Shown here one piece after another: positions 18,274 through 31,935 of a stretch of DNA of 64,000 nt. Numbering within the stretch: the first letter of the stretch is position 1; every line of letters starts with the position of its first letter. The notes beneath the pieces are model-generated. The model did no database searches. It saw only the letters and a program-made list of their open reading frames with translations, and was not told the DNA's origin. The position numbers and the translations under genes are program-made. Source of the stretch: Edaphobacter aggregans (lineage in GTDB: Bacteria; Acidobacteriota; Terriglobia; Terriglobales; Acidobacteriaceae); assembly GCA_022736715.1 (NCBI GenBank), contig DZDJ01000011.1:16493-80492 (forward strand), written 5' to 3'.

Positions 18274-18397
18274 TGGCAGCGTAGAAGTCATAGCGATTGA
18301 CTGCATCAATTCCTTGATGGGCAGAGTCTAAAACATTGTTCGATCAAGAGAGTTTTTCAGAAGAGTTTTGAGCTTTATTTTGAGCGCTGATCTAAAC

Positions 18398-20419
18398 ATG
18401 GATATACCAAAAGGCAACACAAAAACTTTAGCCGGAATTCAGCGGGAAGGGTATCGCGCCAGGCCGCGCTTCGGGCGTCTGGATGAGGGGTTGGATCGTG
18501 TCGAGGAGGGCGTTCTCCGCTCGCGCGAATACATCCTTTCTTTGCAGCACCCCGATGGCTACTGGTGTAGCGAGCTGGAAGCCGATCCCATGCTGGAAGC
18601 CGACTACATTTTTGGGCACCTGTTTCTGGGAACTGGCGACCCGGAGAGGCTGCGGCGCGCTTTGAATGAGATTATGCGCTATCAGAACGAAGATGGTGGC
18701 TGGAGCATTTATCCTGGCGGGCCGTCGAACATCAGCCTGTCAGTGAAGTGCTACTTCGCCTGCAAACTGATGGGCTGGTCCAGGGACGAGCCGTCGCTGG
18801 TGAAGGCGCGGGGGTGGATTCTGGCCAATGGTGGCGTGACGGCGTGCAACACTTTTACCAAAATTTACCTCTGCGTTATGGGGCAGTATGACTATGATGC
18901 GGTTCCGGCCATTCCTCCGGAGATCGTGCTGTTTCCGAATTGGTTTTACTTCAATCTGTATGAGATTTCTTCGTGGTCGCGCGGCATGCTGGTGCCGTTG
19001 TCGATTGCATATGCGAAGAAGCCCTTCAAGAAAATTCCAGCCGGGCAGGGCATTGATGAGCTGTTTGTGGGCGGACGTGAAAGCGCCAACCTGCATTTGC
19101 ACTGGAACAAGCAGAAGATCTTCAGCTGGCGGAATTTTTTCCTGTTCTGCGACCGTATGACGCATTGGTTTGAGCGGATTCACATTCGGCCGCTGCGCAA
19201 GATCGCGCTGAAGAAGGCAGAAAAGTGGATGGTGGCGCGCTTTGAAAAGTCTGATGGTCTGGCGGCAATCTTCCCGGCCATTCTGAATTCCATCATTGCT
19301 TTGCGGTGTCTTGGCTATTCGGTGGACGATCCGCAGGTGATCCGCGCGATGGATGAATTCGAGCGGCTGGGCATTGATGCGCCGCATGGTACGCCGGATT
19401 ATCCAGTGCCCACATTCCGCATGCAGCCCTGTGTTTCTCCGGTGTGGGACACGGCGCAGGCGCTATTTGCCCTGGGCGAGGCGGGCGTTTCTGCCGATGA
19501 TCCGCGCATGATCCAGGCTGCCGACTGGATGTTGACGAAGGAAGTGCGCGACAAGGGTGACTGGGCAGTGAAGGCGCCGAATACGGAGCCGGGCGGCTGG
19601 TACTTCGAATTCAACAACGAGTTTTACCCGGACGTGGATGATTCGGCGATGGTGCTGCTGGCACTCAACAAGGTGAATAGCCCGCGGGAGCGCTACCAGT
19701 ATGAGTCGGCACAGCGGGCCATTGCATGGATTTTTGCCATGCAGTGCAAAAATGGCGGATGGGCCAGCTTCGATAAAGACAACACGAAGATGATCTTCCA
19801 GTACATCCCGTTTGCCGACCACAATGCAATGCTGGATCCGCCGACGGTGGACATTACCGGCCGCGTGCTGGAGATGCTGGCGAACTACGGCTACACGCGC
19901 AAGGACAAGCGTGTGGAAAAGGCCATCCAGTTCATCTACAAGGAGCAGGAAGCGGATGGGAGCTGGTTTGGCCGCTGGGGTGTGAATTATCTGTATGGCA
20001 CGTTCCTGGTGCTGCGTGGGCTGGAGGCCATGGGCGTGGACAACCATGAGCCGCAGGTGCAGCAGGCTGCCGAGTGGATTCGCATGGTGCAGAACCCGGA
20101 TGGTGGATGGGGCGAAAGCTGTGAAAGCTATGACGATCCCATTACGCGCGGTGTTGGCGTGAGCACACCATCGCAGACGGCCTGGGCATTGCTGGGGCTG
20201 CTGGCTGCCGGCGACACGCGCAGCGACTCCGTAGCCAAGGGCATTCGCTGGCTGCTGGACAATCAGAATGAAGACGGCTCATGGAGTGAAACGCAGTATA
20301 CGGGAACGGGTTTCCCGCGCGTGTTCTATCTGGGCTATCAGTATTACCGGTATTACTTCCCGCTGGTGGCGCTTACGACGTACAAGCGCGCCATGGAAGC
20401 GGAAAATCAGGCTGCCTGA
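18398..20419 (+). CDS. shc: Squalene-hopene cyclase
   Basis: Likely start ATG 18398; DxDD motif 'DVDDSAMVLLAL', multiple QW motifs ('QNEDGSWSE', 'QNPDGGWGE'). Confidence 0.96.
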   Translation: MDIPKGNTKTLAGIQREGYRARPRFGRLDEGLDRVEEGVLRSREYILSLQHPDGYWCSELEADPMLEADYIFGHLFLGTGDPERLRRALNEIMRYQNEDGGWSIYPGGPSNISLSVKCYFACKLMGWSRDEPSLVKARGWILANGGVTACNTFTKIYLCVMGQYDYDAVPAIPPEIVLFPNWFYFNLYEISSWSRGMLVPLSIAYAKKPFKKIPAGQGIDELFVGGRESANLHLHWNKQKIFSWRNFFLFCDRMTHWFERIHIRPLRKIALKKAEKWMVARFEKSDGLAAIFPAILNSIIALRCLGYSVDDPQVIRAMDEFERLGIDAPHGTPDYPVPTFRMQPCVSPVWDTAQALFALGEAGVSADDPRMIQAADWMLTKEVRDKGDWAVKAPNTEPGGWYFEFNNEFYPDVDDSAMVLLALNKVNSPRERYQYESAQRAIAWIFAMQCKNGGWASFDKDNTKMIFQYIPFADHNAMLDPPTVDITGRVLEMLANYGYTRKDKRVEKAIQFIYKEQEADGSWFGRWGVNYLYGTFLVLRGLEAMGVDNHEPQVQQAAEWIRMVQNPDGGWGESCESYDDPITRGVGVSTPSQTAWALLGLLAAGDTRSDSVAKGIRWLLDNQNEDGSWSETQYTGTGFPRVFYLGYQYYRYYFPLVALTTYKRAMEAENQAA

Positions 20420-20453
20420 GCGGCAGCAGAAGAAGTTTCTGGAGGAGACGCGG

Positions 20454-21581
20454 ATGGCAGTGCCAGTTTCGCAGATGTGGACGGTAGCAACTTACGTCCT
20501 GAAGCAGAAGATGAAAGGCCATCAGCAGTATCCGCTGGTGCTGATGCTGGAGCCGCTTTTCCGCTGCAATCTGGCCTGTGCCGGATGCGGCAAGATTCAG
20601 TATCCCGCGCATATTCTGAAGTCGGAACTGACGCCGGAAGAGTGCTTCAGGGCGGTGGACGAATGCGGCACGCCGATGGTCTCCATTCCCGGCGGCGAAC
20701 CGCTGCTGCACCCGCAGATTGTGGAAATTGTGGAGGGCCTGGCGGCGCGGAAGAAGTACATCTATCTGTGCACCAACGCGCTGCTGCTGAAGGAGAAGAT
20801 TCATCTCTTCAAGCCGAGCAAATACCTTTCCTTCTCCGTGCATGTGGACGGCCAGCGTGAGCATCACGATTTTTCCGTATGCCGCGAAGGCGGACATGAA
20901 CTGGCGATGGAGGGTGTCAGGGAGGCGTTGCGCCTTGGCTTCCGCGTTACCACGAATACCACGCTCTTTGATGGCGCTGATCCGAACAGCGTGCGCGCGC
21001 ATTTTGATGAGTTGATGGAAGTGGGCGTCGAGAGCATGATGCTCTCGCCCGGATACACCTACGACAAGGCCCCGAACCAGAAGAGCTTTCTGGGCCGCGC
21101 GCGCTCGCGCCGTCTGTTCCGTGCGATTCTGTCGAACCGCAAGAAGTCATGGCGCTTCAATGCGAACCCGCTTTTCCTCGAATTCCTGATGGGCAAGCGC
21201 AACTTTACCTGCACGCCGTGGGGTATGCCGACCTACAACATTTTCGGCTGGCAGAAGCCCTGCTATCTGTTGCAGGATGGCTATGCGGATAGCTACCAGG
21301 AGTTGTTGGAGTCCACTGACTGGGCCAACTATGGCACGGAGAGCGGCAACCCGCGCTGCGCCAATTGCATGGTGCATTCCGGGTATGAGGCTTCGGGCGT
21401 GAACTACACCTTTGGCTCGCTGAAAGGATTTCTGGAGACGGTCAAAGCGACGCTCTTCAACGGCTACAAGGATGACCAGGCGCGGCGTTTGCTGGATGAT
21501 TTCAGGCCCGCGCATCAGAATCCGCTGGTGCAGATTGAGCCTGCGCGGCAGGAACAACTGCAGAGCGTGTCAGGAGATTAG
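20454..21581 (+). CDS. hpnH: Adenosyl-hopene synthase, radical SAM protein HpnH
   Basis: Start ATG 20454 (MAVPVSQMWTVATYVLKQKMKG); 'CNLACAGCGKIQYP' CxxxCxxC motif; follows shc. Confidence 0.95.
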   Translation: MAVPVSQMWTVATYVLKQKMKGHQQYPLVLMLEPLFRCNLACAGCGKIQYPAHILKSELTPEECFRAVDECGTPMVSIPGGEPLLHPQIVEIVEGLAARKKYIYLCTNALLLKEKIHLFKPSKYLSFSVHVDGQREHHDFSVCREGGHELAMEGVREALRLGFRVTTNTTLFDGADPNSVRAHFDELMEVGVESMMLSPGYTYDKAPNQKSFLGRARSRRLFRAILSNRKKSWRFNANPLFLEFLMGKRNFTCTPWGMPTYNIFGWQKPCYLLQDGYADSYQELLESTDWANYGTESGNPRCANCMVHSGYEASGVNYTFGSLKGFLETVKATLFNGYKDDQARRLLDDFRPAHQNPLVQIEPARQEQLQSVSGD

Positions 21582-21583
21582 CC

Positions 21584-22033
21584 ATGACGACAACGGTGGA
21601 AGTAGCACATGGCGCAGCCGTGAATCCCGATGAGGTTGAAGTCGCGGAAGGCCGGGAACGGGAGCAACTCGAAGGCTGGGTGCCGAATCTGGCGACGGAC
21701 GAAGAGATTCGCGTGGCGCTGGAGAAGGCCTTCGACTATCGCGGTGATATTACGATCACGAAAAAGGACGGCTCCAAGGTGGAGGGCTATCTCTTCGACC
21801 GCCGCACGGGAACCACGTTGCAGGACTCGTTTGTTCGTGTGATGCCGCCGCCCGCATCCCAGTCGGATGCACGGACGAAGGTGAGCATTGCCTATAGCGA
21901 GATTGCTGCGCTGGCCTTTACTGGACGGGACACGGCGGCTGGCAAGACCTTTGATGCCTGGGTGAAGAAATACTGGGAAAAGAAGGCTGCGGGCGAGAGG
22001 AACATTCAGATTGAGCCGGAGAAGCTGGACTAG
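21584..22033 (+). CDS. Hypothetical protein in hopanoid locus (149 aa)
   Basis: Starts 2 nt after the hpnH stop; 'DITITKKDGSKVEGYLFDRRTGTTLQDSFVRVMPPP...KVSIAYSEIAALAFTGRDTAAGKTFDAWVKKYWEKK'. Confidence 0.75.
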   Translation: MTTTVEVAHGAAVNPDEVEVAEGREREQLEGWVPNLATDEEIRVALEKAFDYRGDITITKKDGSKVEGYLFDRRTGTTLQDSFVRVMPPPASQSDARTKVSIAYSEIAALAFTGRDTAAGKTFDAWVKKYWEKKAAGERNIQIEPEKLD

Positions 22034-22115: not shown

Positions 22116-22137
22116 CTGGGGCAGAGACAATCAGCAG

Positions 22138-22165
22138 GTGCGGGCAACAGGCCCGCACTTTTCAT
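22138..22165 (+). terminator. Rho-independent terminator inside hopanoid locus
   Basis: GTGCGGGC-AACAG-GCCCGCAC followed by TTTTCATTT. Confidence 0.85.
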
Positions 22166-22201: not shown

Positions 22202-23212
22202 ATGAAAGTTTTTCTGACCGGGGCAACCGGATTTGTTGGCCATCATGTAGCGCAAGCCTATGCCGCGGCGGGGGCGGAGTTGCGGCTGCTGACGCGCGGC
22301 ACCAGCCGGCTGGACGGCCTGGCCGGACTTTCCTTTGATGCAGTGGTGGGGGATCTGCGTCAGCCAGCCGGGTTGCGTTCGGCGCTCGAAGGCTGCGATG
22401 CGCTGGTGCATGTGGCGGCGGACTACCGGCTGTGGGTGCTCAATCCGCAGGAGATGTACGCGGCCAATGTGGATGGTACGCGCGAGTTGTTGCGTATGGC
22501 GCGCGAGGCAGGCGTGCCGCGCGTGGTGTACACCTCCAGCGTGGCCACGATGGGCTTTTTGACGGATGGCACCATTGTGGACGAGGAGACGCCAGTTTCG
22601 CTGGCGGAGATGGTGGGCCATTACAAGCGGTCGAAGTTTCTGGCCGAGCAGGAAGCGATTGCCGCCGCGCGCGCTGGTCAGTATGTGATGATCCTGAACC
22701 CCACGACACCAATCGGCCCGAACGATGCCAAGCCAACGCCGACGGGCCGTATTGTGGTGGATTTTCTCAACCGGAAATTTCCTGCTTATGTCGATACCGG
22801 GCTGAACCTGGTGGATGTGCGCGAAGTGGCGCGCATGCACGTGGCGGCGCTGGAGCAGGGGCGGCCGGGCGAGCGCTACATTCTGGGCGGAGAAAACCTG
22901 ACGCTGAAGCAGATTCTGGACAAGATGTCAGCCATCACCGGGTTGCCGTCGCCCACCATGCAGGTGCCACATGCTGTGGCTATGGCGTTCGCATTTTTGG
23001 ACGAGTGGGTGACCGGCAGGATGCTGGGCAAGGAGCCGCGTGCCACGGTGGAAGCAGTTCGCATGGGCAAAAAGAAGATGTTTGCCTCTTCGAGAAAAGC
23101 GGAGCGGGAGTTGGGTTTCCAGGTGCAGCCGGTCTACGCCGCCTTGCGTGGAGCCATTGACTGGTTTGTAGCCAACGGCCATGCGCCGAAGTATGAGGGG
23201 CCCCCGGCGTGA
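22202..23212 (+). CDS. hpnA: Hopanoid-associated NAD-dependent sugar epimerase HpnA
   Basis: 336 aa; 'MKVFLTGATGFVGHHVAQAYAAAGAELRLLTRG' Rossmann motif; hopanoid-locus context. Confidence 0.9.
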   Translation: MKVFLTGATGFVGHHVAQAYAAAGAELRLLTRGTSRLDGLAGLSFDAVVGDLRQPAGLRSALEGCDALVHVAADYRLWVLNPQEMYAANVDGTRELLRMAREAGVPRVVYTSSVATMGFLTDGTIVDEETPVSLAEMVGHYKRSKFLAEQEAIAAARAGQYVMILNPTTPIGPNDAKPTPTGRIVVDFLNRKFPAYVDTGLNLVDVREVARMHVAALEQGRPGERYILGGENLTLKQILDKMSAITGLPSPTMQVPHAVAMAFAFLDEWVTGRMLGKEPRATVEAVRMGKKKMFASSRKAERELGFQVQPVYAALRGAIDWFVANGHAPKYEGPPA

Positions 23213-23892
23213 AGGCCCGCAAAGCCATTGTGGCTGCGCTGCCACGCGAAGTTGCAGCGCTGGTGCGTGGCTGGCAGCGGGAGGAAGCACTGTTGGCGAA
23301 GAAGATCCTGCTTGCATGGAATGACGATGCGGTGGTGGCCTGTGCAGGAATGGGCGCGGCTCGTGTTTCACTGGCGGTGCAGGCCGTTCTGAGCCGCGGA
23401 CCGATCAGCGAACTGGTTTCCATCGGCTGGGTTGGGGGTCTGCATTCGGGCCTACAGGTGGGGCAGGTGTATACGCCGAAGACGGTCATCGACGCGGCTA
23501 CGGGCGAGCGCTTTTCCGCAGAGAGCGGCGCGGGGGTTCTGGTGACGGTGCGCAGCTTTGCCAACGCCACGGAAAAGCAGCGGCTGCATGCGACATATAG
23601 TGCGGATCTGGTGGACATGGAGGCCGCGGCAGTGGCGCGGCTGGCGCAGGCGCATCAGTTGCCGTTTCGCATGTGGAAGGCGGTTTCCGATGACAATGCG
23701 TTTGCGTTTCCGGAGCTGTCGCGCTTTTACACCGCAGAGGGGTGGTTTCGTGAAGGCGCATTTGCTATGTATCTGATTCCACGGCCGCATTTGTGGGGCA
23801 AGGTGATTCAGATGGCGCGAAACAGTAAACTGGCAGCAGCGAATCTTGGCAAAACAGTGCAACAACAGATGGAAAGCAGACCACAGCAATAA
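23209..23892 (+). CDS. hpnG: Hopanoid-associated nucleoside phosphorylase HpnG
   Basis: 227 aa; PNP/UDP phosphorylase-like 'GVLVTVRSFANATEKQRLHATYSADLVDMEAAAVARLA'; GTGA overlap with hpnA. Confidence 0.88.
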   Translation: MKARKAIVAALPREVAALVRGWQREEALLAKKILLAWNDDAVVACAGMGAARVSLAVQAVLSRGPISELVSIGWVGGLHSGLQVGQVYTPKTVIDAATGERFSAESGAGVLVTVRSFANATEKQRLHATYSADLVDMEAAAVARLAQAHQLPFRMWKAVSDDNAFAFPELSRFYTAEGWFREGAFAMYLIPRPHLWGKVIQMARNSKLAAANLGKTVQQQMESRPQQ

Positions 23893-23900
23893 GTGGAAAG

Positions 23901-25025
23901 ATGGACAGTGAGACAGGCATGAAGACGCAGGCAGGCAGCAGTGCAGTGATGGATGCGGTAAAGATTCCCACAACGATGCGGGCAGCGGTGTACCACGCCG
24001 TGAATGAGGTGCGCGTGGAGACGGTGCCGGTGCCGGAGATTGGCCAGGGCGAGGTGCTGGTGCGCATCCACACCTGCGGCATTTGCGGGACGGACCTGAA
24101 GAAAATTCACACTGGATCGCACTCCGCGCCGCGCATCTTCGGGCACGAGATGGCTGGAACCATTGTGGCCGTGGGCGAAGCTGTGCAGGGCTTTGCCGTG
24201 GGCGATCGCGTGATGGCCTTTCATCACATTCCGTGCGGCAAATGCTATTACTGCCGCAAGAAGACCTTCGCCCAGTGCGAGATCTACAAAAAGGTGGGCT
24301 GCACGGCAGGATATGAACCCGCCGGTGGCGGCTTTGCAGAGTACATCCGGGTGATGGACTGGATCGTGCGTGGCGGGCTGGTGAAGATTCCCGATGGCGT
24401 GCCGTTGGAGCAGGCATCGTTCATTGAGCCGGTGAACACCTGCCTGAAGGGCATTCAACTGCTCGGTCTGCAACCGGACGAGACGGTGCTGGTGATTGGG
24501 CAGGGGCCGATTGGCATTCTGCTGGCGGCGCTGGCAAAGAAGGCCGGGGCCAAGGTGCTGACCTCGGATTTTTACGCGGAGCGGCACCATGTTGCAGCGA
24601 AGTTTGGGCTGGAGCATCCGATCGACGCGGCCAGGGAAGATGTGGTGGCCGCGGCCAGGGCGGCCAGCGAAGGCCGTGGCGCCGATGCGGTAATTCTGGC
24701 CGTAGGGGTGGATGCGTTGATCCGGACGGCGATGGAGGCTGCCCGTCCCGGCGGCCGCGTAATGCTGTTTGCGCAGACGCAGCGCGGAGAGGCGAGCATT
24801 GATCCGGCGGCGGTCTGCATGGACGAGAAGACCTTGCTGGGTTCGTACAGCGCCTCGGTGGAGATGCAGGGCGAAGGGGCCGCGCTGGTGCTGGAGGGAC
24901 ACCGCAACGGCTTTGACCTGACGCAGCTGATCTCGCACCGCTTTACGCTGGAGCAGGCCGTAGAGGCGATCGAACTGGCTTCGCACCCGAAGGCCGACTC
25001 CATGAAGATTGTGATTCAGCCCTGA
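23901..25025 (+). CDS. Zinc-dependent MDR alcohol dehydrogenase 1
   Basis: 374 aa; 'CGICGTDLKKIHTG', 'GHEMAGTIVAVGEAV', 'VIGQGPIGILLAALAKKAGA'; structural-zinc-like Cys cluster 'CGKCYYCRKKTFAQC'. Confidence 0.92.
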   Translation: MDSETGMKTQAGSSAVMDAVKIPTTMRAAVYHAVNEVRVETVPVPEIGQGEVLVRIHTCGICGTDLKKIHTGSHSAPRIFGHEMAGTIVAVGEAVQGFAVGDRVMAFHHIPCGKCYYCRKKTFAQCEIYKKVGCTAGYEPAGGGFAEYIRVMDWIVRGGLVKIPDGVPLEQASFIEPVNTCLKGIQLLGLQPDETVLVIGQGPIGILLAALAKKAGAKVLTSDFYAERHHVAAKFGLEHPIDAAREDVVAAARAASEGRGADAVILAVGVDALIRTAMEAARPGGRVMLFAQTQRGEASIDPAAVCMDEKTLLGSYSASVEMQGEGAALVLEGHRNGFDLTQLISHRFTLEQAVEAIELASHPKADSMKIVIQP

Positions 25026-25051
25026 CTGCGCGAGAGTGAGAAAATATCGAA

Positions 25052-26110
25052 ATGGCTGTGAAGATGCACGCTGCCGTGTTGTACGGCAAAGAAGACTTGC
25101 GGATGGAGCAGGTCCCGGTGCCCAGGGCTGGCGCGGGTGAGGTGGTGGTGCGCGTGAAGGCGGCGCTAACCTGCGGTACTGACCTGAAGGTCTATCGTCG
25201 CGGCTACCATGCCAGGATGCTGAATCCGCCGATCCCGTTTGGCCATGAGCTGGCGGGCGAAATCTCCGAAGTGGGCGAAGGCGTAACGGAGTTCAAGGTT
25301 GGTGACCGCGTGGTGGCGTTGAACTCAGCCCCCTGCGATGCCTGTTATTTCTGCCAGCGCGGACAGCAGAATCTGTGTGACGATCTGCTCTTCAACAATG
25401 GCGCTTATGCGGAGTACATTCTGATTCCGGCGCGCATTGTGGCCAAAAACATGCTGCATGTTCCGCAGCAGGTCTCGTTTGAGCACGCTGCGTTGACGGA
25501 GCCGCTGGCCTGCGTGGTGCGCGGACTGGAGGAAAGCGGCATACGCTCCGGCGATGTGGTGGTGGTGATCGGCGCAGGCCCTATCGGGTTGATGTTCATG
25601 CACGTGGCGGAGCTGGCGGGTGCGCAGGTGATTGCCGTTGTCAAACGCGATGACCAGATTGCCGCCGCACAGACCTTTGGCGCAGGCAAGGTGGTGCAGA
25701 CCACAGCGGTGGACGGTCCGATTGCTGCTGTCCGTGCGTTGACGCCCGAAGGCCGTGGTGCGGATGTAGTGATTGAGGCCGTTGCCACGCCGATGACCTG
25801 GGAGTGGGCGGTGGAAATGGCGCGTAAAGGCGGCACGGTGAACTTCTTTGGCGGGCCACCGTCGGGCACCAAAGTGGCGCTGGATACCAACCGGCTGCAT
25901 TACAACGACATCACGCTGAAGGCCAGTTTTCACCACACGCCGGGCACCTGCCGCCGCGCATTTGAGCTGATCACCAGCGGACGCTTCAAGTGTGCGGAAT
26001 ATATTACCGGACGGGCCTCCCTGGCTGAGGTCGCTGCGGTCTTTGCCCGGATGATGACTCGTTCGGAGCGGCCGGAGACCATCGACATCAAAACGGCGAT
26101 TCTTCCGTAG
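25052..26110 (+). CDS. Zinc-dependent MDR alcohol dehydrogenase 2
   Basis: 352 aa; 'LTCGTDLKVYRRGYH', 'GHELAGEISEVGEGV', 'CDACYFCQRGQQNLC', 'VIGAGPIGLMFMHVAELAGA'. Confidence 0.92.
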   Translation: MAVKMHAAVLYGKEDLRMEQVPVPRAGAGEVVVRVKAALTCGTDLKVYRRGYHARMLNPPIPFGHELAGEISEVGEGVTEFKVGDRVVALNSAPCDACYFCQRGQQNLCDDLLFNNGAYAEYILIPARIVAKNMLHVPQQVSFEHAALTEPLACVVRGLEESGIRSGDVVVVIGAGPIGLMFMHVAELAGAQVIAVVKRDDQIAAAQTFGAGKVVQTTAVDGPIAAVRALTPEGRGADVVIEAVATPMTWEWAVEMARKGGTVNFFGGPPSGTKVALDTNRLHYNDITLKASFHHTPGTCRRAFELITSGRFKCAEYITGRASLAEVAAVFARMMTRSERPETIDIKTAILP

Positions 26111-26142
26111 ACTGTTTGTATTCAAAATAATTGGAAAGCGTT

Positions 26143-27138
26143 ATGAGCCGGAACGGAACGGAAAATTCGCAGCCCCTGCAACTGGATGAGCCGCAGGCCC
26201 TGCTGCAGACGTGTGCGCTGGTTCCGGAGGCGTATCGGACGCCGGCAGTGCGGCCTTCGCTGGAAGAGGCAAAGGCATACTGCAAGCATCTGGCGGAAGC
26301 GCACTATGAGAATTTCCATGTAGCAACGTGGTTTCTGCCGAAGCGGCTGCGTCCGCACTTCCAAAGCATTTATGCGTATTGCCGCATTGCCGATGACCTG
26401 GGCGATGAGATTGGCGATGCGCAGGTCTCCCTGCAATTGCTGGATGCGTGGGAGCAGATGCTGCATGAGTGCTATGACGATCCGCAGCGCTCCCGGCATC
26501 CGGTTTTTGTGGCTTTGGCGGAAACGGTGAGCACCTGCCGCATTCCGCGCGGGCCTTTTGCCGATCTGCTGGTGGCCTTTCGACAGGACCAGACCGTGAC
26601 GCGTCATGCTACGCTGCACAGCCTGCTGGAGTATTCGCGCTACTCGGCCGATCCTGTGGGCAGGCTGGTGCTGTATGCCTGCGGATACGACGATCCGGAG
26701 CTGCAGGCACTTTCAGACAAGGTCTGCACCGCGCTGCAACTGGCAAACTTCTGGCAGGATGTTTCCGTGGACTGTCCGCGTGGCCGCATTTATCTGCCAG
26801 CCGATGCCATGCAGCAGCATGGTGTTACCGGGCAGCAACTGGCGGAGAGAAAATTTACGCCTGGATTTCGCAACATGATGCAGGAGCTGGTTGCGCTGAC
26901 ACGCCAGAGGATGCAGGAAGGTGCTGTCATCAGCCGTAAAGTGGATGCGGAGCTGGCCGTGACGCTGGAGCTGTTTCAGAAAGGCGGCATGGCTACTTTG
27001 CAGGCGATTGAGGATCAGAATTACGATGTGTTGCAGCGCCGTCCCGTGGTTTCCAAAGCGCGCAAGGTCATCTTGCTTGTGGAGGCGCTCGCGGGGAAGG
27101 CGGCTTCAGCATTTTCAGGGAAAAGGAAGATGGCGTGA
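26143..27138 (+). CDS. hpnC: Squalene synthase HpnC
   Basis: Likely start ATG 26143; phytoene/squalene synthase 'SIYAYCRIADDLGDEIGD', 'ANFWQDVSVDCPRGRIYLP'. Confidence 0.93.
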   Translation: MSRNGTENSQPLQLDEPQALLQTCALVPEAYRTPAVRPSLEEAKAYCKHLAEAHYENFHVATWFLPKRLRPHFQSIYAYCRIADDLGDEIGDAQVSLQLLDAWEQMLHECYDDPQRSRHPVFVALAETVSTCRIPRGPFADLLVAFRQDQTVTRHATLHSLLEYSRYSADPVGRLVLYACGYDDPELQALSDKVCTALQLANFWQDVSVDCPRGRIYLPADAMQQHGVTGQQLAERKFTPGFRNMMQELVALTRQRMQEGAVISRKVDAELAVTLELFQKGGMATLQAIEDQNYDVLQRRPVVSKARKVILLVEALAGKAASAFSGKRKMA

Positions 27139-28136
27139 GCAAAGCTGTGTCGGAGATGAGCCTGCAACATGCTTACGCAGCCTGCCGCGAGATTGCCCGG
27201 CGCGAAGCAAAGAACTTCTACTACGCTTTTCTGGCGCTGCCCCGCCACAAAAGCGATGCCATGTGCGCAGTCTATGCGTTCATGCGCCGTGCGGACGACA
27301 TTGCGGACGATGAGTCGCTGCCGATGGAGGCGCGCCGCCATGAGATGCAGCGCTGGATGGATGCCTGGCATTGCGCGCAGCAGGGCGGGGCCACGGACGA
27401 TCCTGTTTTTATTGCCCTGCGTGATGCGCAGCGGCGCTTTGGCATTCGCAATGCTTTGCTGGACCAGTTGGTGCAGGGCACGGCGATGGACTTGTCGCTG
27501 GATCTGCATACGGCATCCGGCGCAGAAGGCGTTACGCAGCCGGTGGCATGGATCACCATTGCTTCAGAAGAGGCCGATGGGCAGGAGTTTCAGGGGTGCG
27601 AGCGGTTCGACGAACTCTACCGTTATTGTTATCTGGTGGCCTCGGTGGTGGGCCTGGTTTGCATCCGCATTTTTGGCTATGAGGACCAGCGCGCGGAAAA
27701 ACTGGCTGAAGAAACGGGCGTTGCCTTCCAGTTGACGAACATTCTGCGCGACATCCGCGAGGATGCCGAGCGTGGGCGTGTTTATCTTCCCACGAAAGAC
27801 TTCGAGCAGTTTTCCGTGGAGGTGGCCGGATTTGCGCAGTTAAAAGACGGCCATCACATGACGCTGAACCAGCGCGAACTGATGGAGTTTGAGGTGCAGC
27901 GGGCCTACAAGTTCTACCAATCGGCGGAGGCGCTGCTGCCATTGATTGCGCCGGACAGCCGCCCGGCGCTGTGGGTTCTGGTGACGATCTATCGCACGCT
28001 GCTCGACCGCATCGTTGCGGAAAACTTCAACGTCTTTTCCCATCGGCTTCAGGTGTCCACTGCAACCAAGCTGCGCATTCTGCTGCGCGGTCTGCTGGCC
28101 ATGCTGCGGTATCGCACTACAGGCAAGGCAAGTTGA
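27135..28136 (+). CDS. hpnD: Presqualene diphosphate synthase HpnD
   Basis: GTG start overlapping the hpnC stop; 'AVYAFMRRADDIADDE', 'LTNILRDIREDAERGRVYLP'. Confidence 0.94.
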   Translation: MSKAVSEMSLQHAYAACREIARREAKNFYYAFLALPRHKSDAMCAVYAFMRRADDIADDESLPMEARRHEMQRWMDAWHCAQQGGATDDPVFIALRDAQRRFGIRNALLDQLVQGTAMDLSLDLHTASGAEGVTQPVAWITIASEEADGQEFQGCERFDELYRYCYLVASVVGLVCIRIFGYEDQRAEKLAEETGVAFQLTNILRDIREDAERGRVYLPTKDFEQFSVEVAGFAQLKDGHHMTLNQRELMEFEVQRAYKFYQSAEALLPLIAPDSRPALWVLVTIYRTLLDRIVAENFNVFSHRLQVSTATKLRILLRGLLAMLRYRTTGKAS

Positions 28137-29554
28137 TGGCCGGGGAACGCGCAATTCGCAACGTGCTGGTGGTTGGCGGAGGCATTGCCGGGCTGGGTGC
28201 GGCCACGGCGCTGGCGCAGGCCGGCTATCCGGTGGAGGTGCTGGAGCGCAGGCCCTACGTGGGCGGGCGCGCATCGTCGTATGAGCATCCAGCGCTGGGC
28301 GAGGTGGTGGACTGCCAGCATGTGCTGCTGGGCTGTTGCACCAACCTGATCCACCTGTACACGCAGGCCGGGGTTGCGGACAAGATTCGCTGGTACGACG
28401 AACTGACGTTTCTGGAGCCGAATGGCCGCGCCAGCAAAATCCGGCCCAGCGGTCTGCCGGCGCCAATGCACTCTACGCTCAGCTTTCTGCGCGCTCCCAT
28501 GCTGGGCCCCTGGGACAAGCTGGCGATCGCGCGCGGATTGCTTGGCTTTTTCACGGGCATTCCGGCGGACTCCAGCGAAAGCGTTGCCGGCTGGCTGCGG
28601 CGCACCGGGCAAACGGATCGGGCCATTCGCCACTTCTGGGAGCCGGTGCTGGTCGGCGCATTGAATGACAGCTTTGAGAACTGCTCGGTGCGTTATGCCG
28701 GACAGGTCTTCCGCGAATCTTTTCTGAAGTCCGCGCAGGGCGGGCGGCTGGGGATTCCTGCGGTGCCGCTCAGCGAGCTTTACGCCGGGGCTGCGCGGTT
28801 GGTGGAGCAGCATGGCGGCGTGGTGCATCTGCGGGAAAGTGTCGAGGCCTTTGCGCAGGAGCCGGACGGAAGTTGGTGCGTGCGCACGCAAAATGGTTCT
28901 TATGGCGCGGACGCCATTGTGCTGGCGCTGCCGTTTGAGCAGGTGCAGCGCTTGCTGCCGACATTGCCGCAGGTTGCTGGCGTGGACGCGCTGCAGCGGC
29001 AGATGGCGCAGTTTGTGCCTTCGCCCATCACCACGTTGCAGTTGTGGTTTGACCGCGAGATCACCGATCTGGACCATGCGGTACTGTTGGATACGACGAT
29101 CCAGTGGCTCTTCCATAAGTCGCGCATCCGTGGATTTGCGCCAGATGAATTTGCGCCAGCCAGGGGCAGCTATCTGGAACTGACGATCAGCGCTTCCAAG
29201 GCGCAGTTGAAGATGGAGCGAGGCGAAATCCTGCAAAATGCCCTGCAGGAGCTGGCGCTCTTTTTCCCGAAGGTAAAAGATGCGAAGCTGCTGAAGAGCG
29301 GCATTCTGAAGGAGGCGCGCGCCACGTTTTCCGTGCTTCCCGGCCTGGATGCGGCGCGTCCGGGCAATGTAAGCCCGTGGCCGGGCATTTTTCTGGCCGG
29401 GGACTGGACGGCTACGGACTGGCCTTCCACCATGGAAGGAGCCGTGCGCAGCGGGTATCTTGCGGCCGAGGCGGTTGTGCGCGCGAATGGCAGCCCACGC
29501 AAATTTCTGCAACCCGATCTGCCAGCGCAGGGTCTGATGCGGCTCTTCGGATAG
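28136..29554 (+). CDS. hpnE: Hydroxysqualene dehydroxylase HpnE
   Basis: ATG 28136 overlaps the hpnD TGA; 'VLVVGGGIAGLGAATALAQAGYPVEVLERRPYVGGRASSY'; C-terminal 'FLAGDWTATDWPSTMEGAVRSGYLAAE'. Confidence 0.93.
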   Translation: MAGERAIRNVLVVGGGIAGLGAATALAQAGYPVEVLERRPYVGGRASSYEHPALGEVVDCQHVLLGCCTNLIHLYTQAGVADKIRWYDELTFLEPNGRASKIRPSGLPAPMHSTLSFLRAPMLGPWDKLAIARGLLGFFTGIPADSSESVAGWLRRTGQTDRAIRHFWEPVLVGALNDSFENCSVRYAGQVFRESFLKSAQGGRLGIPAVPLSELYAGAARLVEQHGGVVHLRESVEAFAQEPDGSWCVRTQNGSYGADAIVLALPFEQVQRLLPTLPQVAGVDALQRQMAQFVPSPITTLQLWFDREITDLDHAVLLDTTIQWLFHKSRIRGFAPDEFAPARGSYLELTISASKAQLKMERGEILQNALQELALFFPKVKDAKLLKSGILKEARATFSVLPGLDAARPGNVSPWPGIFLAGDWTATDWPSTMEGAVRSGYLAAEAVVRANGSPRKFLQPDLPAQGLMRLFG

Positions 29555-29938
29555 CTACTGTGCCAGCAGCGCCACCCCGGCACAGACAAACAGAGCGGCA
29601 ATCCAGCGGCGGCGGTCAACATTCTCTTTTAGAAAAATCTTTGCGGCAAAGGCATTGCTGATGAAGGTGAGCGAGGCGGAGGCCGGCGCCACCAGGCTGA
29701 CGTCCGTCCAACTGAGCGCAAAGAGCAGCGAGAAGAAGCTGAGCGCCATGCAGACCACCCCGGCGAGGAACATACCATTGCCAACCACGGCGCGAATGGC
29801 TCCCGGCAGGCCGGAGCGGGCCTTGATGCTGTCCAGATCGCCGATGCGACGCATCGCGCCCGCCGTCAGCACATCGCCAGCCGTTGCAGTGACGACGATG
29901 GCGAGAATCATGCTCCAGGTTGCTGCCCAGCTCGTCAT
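29555..29938 (-). CDS. EamA/DMT-type half-transporter (127 aa)
   Basis: About 4 TM; 'LLFALSWTDVSLVAPASASLTFISNAFAAKIFLKENVDRRRWIAALFVCAGVALL'. Confidence 0.82.
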   Translation of the reverse strand: MTSWAATWSMILAIVVTATAGDVLTAGAMRRIGDLDSIKARSGLPGAIRAVVGNGMFLAGVVCMALSFFSLLFALSWTDVSLVAPASASLTFISNAFAAKIFLKENVDRRRWIAALFVCAGVALLAQ

Positions 29939-30369
29939 CCCACCTTCTCCAGTGCTTTCTCCGTCGTCTGTGCCGGGGCATGCTCTGTCAGCGATGGTCC
30001 CTGCGATACAAAACCCACGCCGGCCACAACCAGCAGCACGCCCAGCCAGCGCATCAGCGAGACATGCTCATGCAGCCAGAAGGTGGAAAGCAGCTCCACG
30101 ACAACATAGCCAAAGGCGGTGGAGGGCAGCACAAATGTGAGGTCTGCCCAGCTCAGCGCCGTCAGGTACGAGGCAAAAAAGCCGATCAGCAGCAGAATGC
30201 CAGCCATGATCCAGGGGTTCCGCAGGGCATGGAGCAGCGTGACCAGTTGATGCAGCGAGACCGGGCCAACCTGCTTCATGCCGACGGAAAGAAAGGTGTC
30301 GCCTACGGAGGCCGTCAGCATCACGGCCAGCAGAACCAGATAGCGGCGAAATGTGAGCGTGTGTTTCAT
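29935..30369 (-). CDS. EamA/DMT-type half-transporter (144 aa)
   Basis: About 4 TM; 'TALSWADLTFVLPSTAFGYVVVELLSTFWLHEHVSLMRWLGVLLVVAGVGFV'; 4-nt overlap with the next gene. Confidence 0.82.
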   Translation of the reverse strand: MKHTLTFRRYLVLLAVMLTASVGDTFLSVGMKQVGPVSLHQLVTLLHALRNPWIMAGILLLIGFFASYLTALSWADLTFVLPSTAFGYVVVELLSTFWLHEHVSLMRWLGVLLVVAGVGFVSQGPSLTEHAPAQTTEKALEKVG

Positions 30370-30438: not shown

Positions 30439-31935
30439 TTAGTCACCAGCGCTCAGGGCCGTGCTGGCCTCTGCGCTGGCCTTGTTCTTGCTGGCCTTCA
30501 CAATCTTGTTGCGCTGCGCACGCAGCTTCAGGAAGGACTTTGCCTCCTGGTACAGGCGCGGCACATCGCGGTTGATGATCGCCTTGCTCACCACGCGCCA
30601 CGCAGCCTTTGGGCGGAAGTAATACTCGTCATAGAAGCGGTGCACCATTTCCAGGACGTACTCCACCGCCAGGCCGGGGTACTCAATGTGCGCCATCTGG
30701 TGACCGCCTTCATCCGCCATGTCCTGGTTGGTGATGAAGCCGTGTTCCTTGGCAAAGTCGTAGAACTCGGTCCCCGGAAAGGCATGCGCAATGGAGACCT
30801 GAATGGTTTCCACATCCAGCGACTTGGCGAAGTTGATCGTGTTGCGGATCGACTCCCTGGTTTCTCCCGGCAGGCCCAGAATGAAGTCGCCATGGATGGT
30901 GAGGCCCAGCTTGTGGCAGTCCCGCGTAAAGTCACGCGCGCGCTCCACCGTGGCGCCTTTCTTGATGTTCTTCAGAATCTGCGGATCGCCGGACTCATAG
31001 CCCACAATCAGCAAGCGGCAGCCAGCATCGCGCATGGCCTTCAGCGTGTCGTAATCGGTCGTCACACGCGAGGTGCAGGACCACGTCAGCTTCAGCGGCT
31101 TCAGTTTTTCGCACAGTTCAATGGTGCGGGCCTTCTGAATGTTGAAGGTGTCATCGTCAAAGAAGAACTCCTTCACATGCGGGAAGAGCTCCTTGGCGTG
31201 CGCCATTTCCGCGGCGACGTCATCGGTGGAGCGCTTGCGCCAGGCATGGCCGCTCAGCGTCTGTGGCCACAGGCAGAAGGTGCACTGCGCCGGGCAGCCG
31301 CGCGTGGAGTAAAGCGCCACATACGGATGCAGCAGGAACGGCACGTTGTACTTCGTCACATCCATGTCGCGGGCATAGATGTCCGTCACCCACGGCATCG
31401 CGTCCAGGTTGTCCACCTGTGGGCGGTCCGGGTTATGGATAATCTGGCCGTCCTGGATGTAGCTGATGCCGAGAATCTCTTGCAGCGGCTTGCCGTTGGC
31501 GTACTCCACCACGGAGTAGTCAAACTCGCGGCGGCAGATGAAGTCGATGGCGCTGCACTCGGTCAGCGCTTTTTCCGGCGACGTGGTGACCGGAGGGCCA
31601 ACGAAGGCGATCTTGATGTTGGGGTGGGTCTCTTTCAGCCGTTCCGCCATGCGCTGGTCGCCAGACCAGCCAATGGTGCTGGTGAAGAGCACCAGAAATT
31701 CATAGTCCTTGGCAATGTCGATCACCTGCTGCCAGGAGATGTGGTGCGGCGGCGCATCCAGCAGGCGCGCACCCTCCAGCATGCCCGTGGGGTAGGCAAG
31801 CCAGACCGGATACCAGTAGGACTCAATCTCGCGGGTCGCGGGCCAGCGAGAGCTGGCACCACCGTCAAAATTCTCAAACGAGGGCGGGTTCAAAAACAGT
31901 GTTTTCAGTGGCATGTCAATTTTTAAGTCTACCAT
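30439..31935 (-). CDS. hpnJ: Hopanoid biosynthesis B12-binding/radical SAM protein HpnJ
   Basis: 498 aa; 'YSTRGCPAQCTFCLWPQTLSGHAWRKRS' radical SAM motif, N-terminal B12-binding-like domain ('LFLNPPSFENFDGGASSRWPATREIES'). Confidence 0.9.
   Translation of the reverse strand: MVDLKIDMPLKTLFLNPPSFENFDGGASSRWPATREIESYWYPVWLAYPTGMLEGARLLDAPPHHISWQQVIDIAKDYEFLVLFTSTIGWSGDQRMAERLKETHPNIKIAFVGPPVTTSPEKALTECSAIDFICRREFDYSVVEYANGKPLQEILGISYIQDGQIIHNPDRPQVDNLDAMPWVTDIYARDMDVTKYNVPFLLHPYVALYSTRGCPAQCTFCLWPQTLSGHAWRKRSTDDVAAEMAHAKELFPHVKEFFFDDDTFNIQKARTIELCEKLKPLKLTWSCTSRVTTDYDTLKAMRDAGCRLLIVGYESGDPQILKNIKKGATVERARDFTRDCHKLGLTIHGDFILGLPGETRESIRNTINFAKSLDVETIQVSIAHAFPGTEFYDFAKEHGFITNQDMADEGGHQMAHIEYPGLAVEYVLEMVHRFYDEYYFRPKAAWRVVSKAIINRDVPRLYQEAKSFLKLRAQRNKIVKASKNKASAEASTALSAGD

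Follow-up and report, generated by a model that had tools for sequence, protein, structure and literature searches.

Two zinc dehydrogenases with opposite predicted coenzyme types are conserved in the hopanoid operon of one acidobacterial group

The window analyzed here, a stretch of 64,000 nucleotides from Edaphobacter aggregans (Acidobacteriota; contig DZDJ01000011.1), carries two zinc-dependent alcohol dehydrogenase genes, ADH1 (23901..25025, plus strand) and ADH2 (25052..26110, plus strand), within its hopanoid biosynthesis (hpn) operon. The two enzymes very probably belong to the hopanoid pathway in this acidobacterial group. We tentatively favor the reading that they are dedicated side-chain oxidoreductases of this group, where ADH2 may reduce ribosylhopane and ADH1 may perform a second redox step. 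The gene neighborhood is not new, having been printed earlier as ug1 and ug2 (PMC5462960); the fixed coenzyme split, the block loss of the pair together with hpnA and hpnG in four genera, and the limits set on the reductase idea are new.

The plus-strand genes of the window are ordered shc, hpnH, ug3, hpnA, hpnG, ADH1, ADH2, hpnC, hpnD, and hpnE. The open reading frames (ORFs) confirmed that ADH1 and ADH2 are intact and co-directional between hpnG and hpnC, as had been proposed in an earlier reading of the letters of this DNA (the sequence-only reading). The preceding hpnG (23209..23892, plus strand) is a divergent nucleoside phosphorylase/nucleosidase that matched PNP_UDP_1 and, with an E-value of 6e-24 and below the cut-off (84.7 vs. 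187.1 bits), TIGR03468. Its stop codon lies 8 bp from ADH1, and 26 bp separate ADH1 from ADH2. Throughout the window's own family (f1), ADH1 was present in 234 of 250 genomes and ADH2 in 58 of 60, and the two genes adjoined each other in 28 of the first 30 loci. In split f1 clusters (G034, G117, G201, and G184), ADH1 stands behind hpnA-hpnG or hpnG, and ADH2, where seen, precedes hpnC. The ADH identities in f1 (approximately 57–83%) were above those of HpnG (approximately 31–50%).

The labels f27, f38, f49, f64, and f86 denote other acidobacterial families, and hpnG-ADH1-ADH2-hpnC recurs in other such families at approximately 50% ADH identity. A collection was scanned using an ADH1 alignment led by an f49 sequence and blind to hpn genes, and the best 80 of 507 matches, many titled gp2 or Acidiferrales, were considered. 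Among these best 80, ADH2 was next to ADH1 at every locus, and hpnG stood just before ADH1 at 77, the remaining three starting less than 250 bp from the contig start. The order shc-hpnH-hpnA-hpnG-ADH1-ADH2-hpnC-hpnD-hpnE was complete at 40 of the 80 loci, and one more added a deacetylase gene. The titles named acidobacterial groups for all but two of the 80; these two, labelled Bacillota and Betaproteobacteria, have the same acidobacterial-type operon, and their labels are probably wrong. The order from hpnA to hpnE with the pair between hpnG and hpnC was kept in f1, f49, and related gp2/Acidiferrales loci, and the same order extended through hpnD in f64. The f27 loci (L105–L108 and L331–L334) read hpnA-ADH1-ADH2-hpnD (or hpnC), with hpnG downstream or elsewhere. 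L241 and L254 have ADH2 behind hpnG-ADH1, and no hpnC follows; a polysaccharide deacetylase gene (PF01522) lies directly behind ADH2 at these two loci and just behind hpnE in G149 (L109 4452-5153). As the adjacency recurs across divergent families, chance neighborhood in one genome was rejected; the synteny, which the sequence-only reading would have abandoned its proposal over had it been limited to this genome, is widespread, and physical linkage to hpnG/hpnH, as looked for in a ribosylhopane reductase, was found in several lineages.

Judged from their sequences, ADH1 (374 aa) and ADH2 (352 aa) are intact zinc enzymes of the medium-chain dehydrogenase/reductase (MDR) superfamily, of the polyol/threonine dehydrogenase type. 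Each contains ADH_N (PF08240) and ADH_zinc_N (PF00107) domains with E-values of 1e-28 to 1e-19, far over the cut-off. The predicted catalytic-zinc ligands are C62, H82, E83, and E176 in ADH1 and C41, H65, E66, and E150 in ADH2. These ligands and the four structural-zinc cysteines were invariant in 151 ADH1 orthologs, and the zinc residues were kept in 144 ADH2 orthologs except for Cys41, which was replaced with Asp in 37 sequences of a gp2 subgroup; the catalytic and structural zinc motifs of the sequence-only reading were borne out by domains and conserved ligands. The Cys41-to-Asp replacement is exemplified by L246 9128-10162, along with other gp2 ADH2 sequences, and a similar Asp zinc ligand occurs in halophilic glucose dehydrogenase. 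A recent tandem duplication was ruled out because ADH1 and ADH2 share 33% identity and fall into two distinct clades, whose members pair up across families.

The AlphaFold models were confident (pLDDT 87 for ADH1 and 91 for ADH2) and matched MDR structures with TM-scores of approximately 0.8–0.9, including 4ej6, 5vm2, threonine dehydrogenases, and the ketose reductase 1e3j. In the profile search, 1e3j, an NADP(H)-dependent enzyme of the silverleaf whitefly, was the top match of ADH1 and the second-best of ADH2. It shares the MDR fold and zinc ligand pattern with both enzymes and a non-acidic coenzyme site with Arg with ADH2, and it yields a polyol; however, it is approximately 29% identical over the structural match and acts on the C2 of a ketose, not on a ribosyl-hopane aldehyde. 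Neither ADH reached any NCBIfam equivalog cut-off. TIGR00692 (L-threonine 3-dehydrogenase; 169–177 vs. 458 bits) and NF041097 (scyllo-inosose 3-dehydrogenase IolM; 165–172 vs. 450 bits) were among the best NCBIfam profile matches of both, yet the ADHs are not members of either. TIGR03366 (HpnZ_proposed), which is a model for a phosphonate-associated ADH despite its name, scored 120 and 92 vs. 328 bits.

In Rossmann folds, an acidic residue where the second beta strand of the coenzyme domain ends indicates NAD(H), and a non-acidic residue followed by a basic one indicates NADP(H). This position is Asp223 in ADH1 and was Asp in 150 of 151 orthologs, with Glu in the remaining one. The matching ADH2 site (V197-K198-R199) was non-acidic (Val, Gly, or Ala) in 142 of 144 orthologs and Asp in two; the next residue was Lys or Arg in 137 and Asn in seven, and the one after that was Arg in 131. 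By this rule, ADH1 is predicted to be of the NAD(H) type and ADH2 of the NADP(H) type, and the split of site types is fixed across the orthologs.

The sequence-only reading had proposed that one or both ADHs may reduce ribosylhopane, or else oxidize side-chain hydroxyls. Its premise that this reduction has no agreed gene was upheld by a 2025 paper, which states that the enzyme converting ribosylhopane to bacteriohopanetetrol (BHT) is not established (PMC12583986). In the survey of Sinninghe Damste et al. 2017 (PMC5462960), ug1 stands after hpnA-hpnG and ug2, a zinc alcohol dehydrogenase of approximately 350 aa, before hpnC, and no function was given for these genes or ug3; the ug genes were found in subdivision (SD) 1 and partly in SD2/SD3. 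The ug1 and ug2 genes share positions and subdivisions with ADH1 and ADH2, and ADH1 would be ug1 from its position, whereas that account has no analysis of coenzyme, loss, or stand-alone pairs. In the literature found, no paper assigned a function to these ADHs.

In our favored reading, the pair would act after HpnH, which adds adenosine, and HpnG, which removes adenine, and ADH2 would reduce the ring-opened ribosylhopane to BHT using NADPH. ADH1, with its NAD-type site, would catalyze a second step, probably an oxidation, at one of the hydroxyls of that side chain, and in other hopanoid producers the reduction would fall to an unrelated enzyme. ADH2 is the likelier reductase because an NADP-type site fits a biosynthetic reduction; its assignment, which draws on residue patterns, is possible but doubtful, and that of ADH1 is improbable. 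The closest characterized profile relative, 1e3j, supports this reading as an NADP(H) ketose reductase forming a polyol. The conserved gene order, the company that each ADH keeps in split f1 clusters, their higher conservation relative to HpnG, the joint losses described below, and the coenzyme split also count in its favor. A ribosylhopane reductase activity, the same reaction as that proposed for ADH2, was reportedly obtained from Methylobacterium organophilum by Bodlenner et al. in 2015 (cited in PMC12583986), in a cell-free system only and with no gene.

The distribution of the pair was compared with that of hpnH. In a phylum sample of 149 genomes, hpnH was over the cut-off in 35 and ADH1 was present in 20, of which 19 were hpnH-positive. 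In a sample of 396 genomes, strong ADH1 orthologs were found in 63 (42 f1, 14 f27, three f38, two f64, one f49, and one f86), and hpnH was present in 15 of the 21 outside f1. The hpnH-negative ADH1 genomes outside f1 were three f27 drafts (84–93% complete) and, carrying more weight, G448 (100%), G559 (97%), and G602 (93%). In the tree, the hpn-linked ADH1 sequences formed their own group beside the stand-alone ones (modest support, 91/66), and ADH2 showed the same broad pattern (86/87). By this placement, the tandem probably existed before it joined the operon, or else it outlasted a loss of hpnH.

Several points weigh against the reductase reading. The ADH1-ADH2 tandem stands alone in G448, G559, and G602 (L328, L329, and L330), with neither hpn context nor hpnH; two families carry it without hpnH, and the pair is not confined to genomes making hopanoid side chains. 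The gene hpnH was found without an ADH1 ortholog in G008 and in eight other sampled families (f2, f24, f25, f31, f40, f46, f47, and f55), so the pair does not occur in all producers of side-chain hopanoids, as it need not if non-orthologous enzymes serve the step. Therefore, side-chain hopanoids in the phylum do not require the pair, and the pair is not limited to hpnH genomes. The usual substrates of MDR polyol dehydrogenases are secondary alcohols and ketones, not aldoses at C1. One step needs one reductase, yet two ADHs and HpnA, a short-chain dehydrogenase/reductase (SDR), are present. These enzyme habits, the surplus of enzymes, and the uneven distribution favor an accessory or redox-pair role. 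Moreover, strains of SD3 and SD4 produce bacteriohopanepolyols (PMC5462960). Of the earlier proposal, the linkage to the pathway and the NADP-type site of ADH2 stand in its favor, and it does not hold as a general answer, given the hpnH-bearing Acidobacteria without the pair, the pair without hpnH, and the rival HpnA.

The losses of the pair do not discriminate between steps either. In four genera (G008, G243, G319, and G363), hpnA, hpnG, ADH1, ADH2, and any squalene-synthase-family gene (PF00494) were absent genome-wide, although the completeness of G319 and G363 is just 83%. In G243, G319, and G363 (L172, L173, and L174), shc-hpnH-ug3 or hpnH-ug3 is kept in mid contig; in G008 (L114), shc-hpnH-ug3 is kept and a transposase-like ORF closes the contig soon behind it. 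The lost genes are contiguous and a single deletion could remove them all, so that the losses do not speak for each gene independently; they tie the fate of the ADHs to that of hpnA and hpnG, without pointing to a particular step. Seven ADH1-negative genomes (G226, G254, G263, G274, G282, G331, and G365) have fragments at contig edges and were left out of the losses. No obvious substitute reductase was seen next to hpnG in seven ADH-less clusters, as judged by eye from ORF starts given by a crude gene finder. The four genomes with the losses have a cyclase and/or HpnH without an evident squalene source, and IS630-type transposase-like ORFs were noticed by eye at L114 9045-10081, directly behind ug3, where the hpnA-hpnE block is missing.

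A rather doubtful alternative is that ADH1 oxidizes a side-chain hydroxyl of BHT or ribosylhopane to a ketone and ADH2 re-reduces this ketone to a different stereochemistry or hands it on, which would give a group-specific side chain while another gene encodes the reductase. Opposite coenzyme types kept together in all lineages are usual for oxidation followed by reduction, the closest characterized MDRs have secondary alcohols and ketoses as substrates, and the ADHs are absent from other hpnH-bearing families; the Rohmer degradation used in the acidobacterial survey does not resolve such side-chain variants (PMC5462960). However, no unusual side chain was reported for these strains in the literature found, and ADH1 and ADH2 can sit apart in f1 genomes. 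A distinctly unlikely version is that an NAD+/NADPH couple remodels or epimerizes the side chain after recruitment from an older two-enzyme module that persists alone in hpnH-less lineages. It is unlikely, on our assessment, that HpnA reduces ribosylhopane and that the ADHs perform accessory oxidoreductions. HpnA (22202..23212, plus strand; 'hopanoid-associated sugar epimerase', TIGR03466 over the cut-off) is a dehydrogenase-type enzyme of the same operon that was already suggested for this step (PMC5462960), and its gene adjoins hpnH/hpnG also in families without the ADHs; unlike the ADHs, it is an SDR without zinc and is present in hpn clusters lacking them.

The pair may instead serve another small molecule and be merely located in the operon, as the stand-alone tandems in the three hpnH-less genomes, a more distantly related tandem in G133, which lacks hpnH, and best PDB matches to general polyol/threonine dehydrogenases would allow. 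This is quite unlikely, given that the operon placement is kept over family-level divergence, that none of the f1 genomes tested had ADH1 while lacking hpnA/hpnG, and that the hpn-linked ADH1 group is apart from the stand-alone ones in the tree, at the modest support given above. A part for ADH2 in the squalene section, from its position before hpnC, is highly improbable: ADH2 travels with hpnC in split f1 clusters and ug2 was grouped with hpnCDE, but squalene formation needs no more than HpnC, HpnD, and HpnE (Pan et al. 2015, cited in PMC5462960), and L241 and L254 keep ADH2 with hpnG-ADH1 in the absence of a following hpnC.

Elsewhere in the locus, on the plus strand, shc (18368..20419; squalene-hopene cyclase) and hpnH (20451..21581; the radical SAM enzyme adenosylhopane synthase) were over the cut-offs of TIGR01507 and TIGR03470, respectively. 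The hpnH ORF opens at 20268, and the conserved start, taken from homologs, is at approximately 20451. The gene ug3 (21584..22033, plus strand; 149 aa), named as in PMC5462960, had no Pfam or NCBIfam matches; it lies just behind hpnH in f1 loci and stays with hpnH where the rest is lost. A terminator-like hairpin (22136..22160, plus strand), found in a consensus scan only, lies between ug3 and hpnA and suggests that hpnA-hpnG-ADH1-ADH2-hpnCDE may form a unit of its own, within which hpnA and hpnG share a 4-bp overlap. ADH2 is followed by hpnC (26131..27138, plus strand; TIGR03464 over the cut-off) after 20 bp from a TTG start or 32 bp from the likelier ATG at 26143. The next gene, hpnD (27135..28136, plus strand; PF00494), had TIGR03465 as its best match, below the cut-off (229.9 vs. 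278.6 bits), and hpnE (28139..29554, plus strand), an FAD amine-oxidoreductase, was assigned from PF01593 and its position behind hpnD. The radical SAM gene hpnJ (30439..31935; TIGR03471 over the cut-off) is on the minus strand. Between hpnE and hpnJ, two small EamA-type genes on the minus strand (29555-29938 and 29935-30369) overlap by 4 bp; one is weakly ArnE-like (21.8 vs. 92 bits), at least the first recurs at that spot in relatives, and the two possibly form a two-part lipid flippase.

Hopanoids serve widely as biomarkers, and the final step to BHT still lacks a gene. Two conserved, well-defined candidates with predicted coenzymes open this step to direct tests with purified protein, and the many producers without the pair predict that the reduction step was solved more than once.
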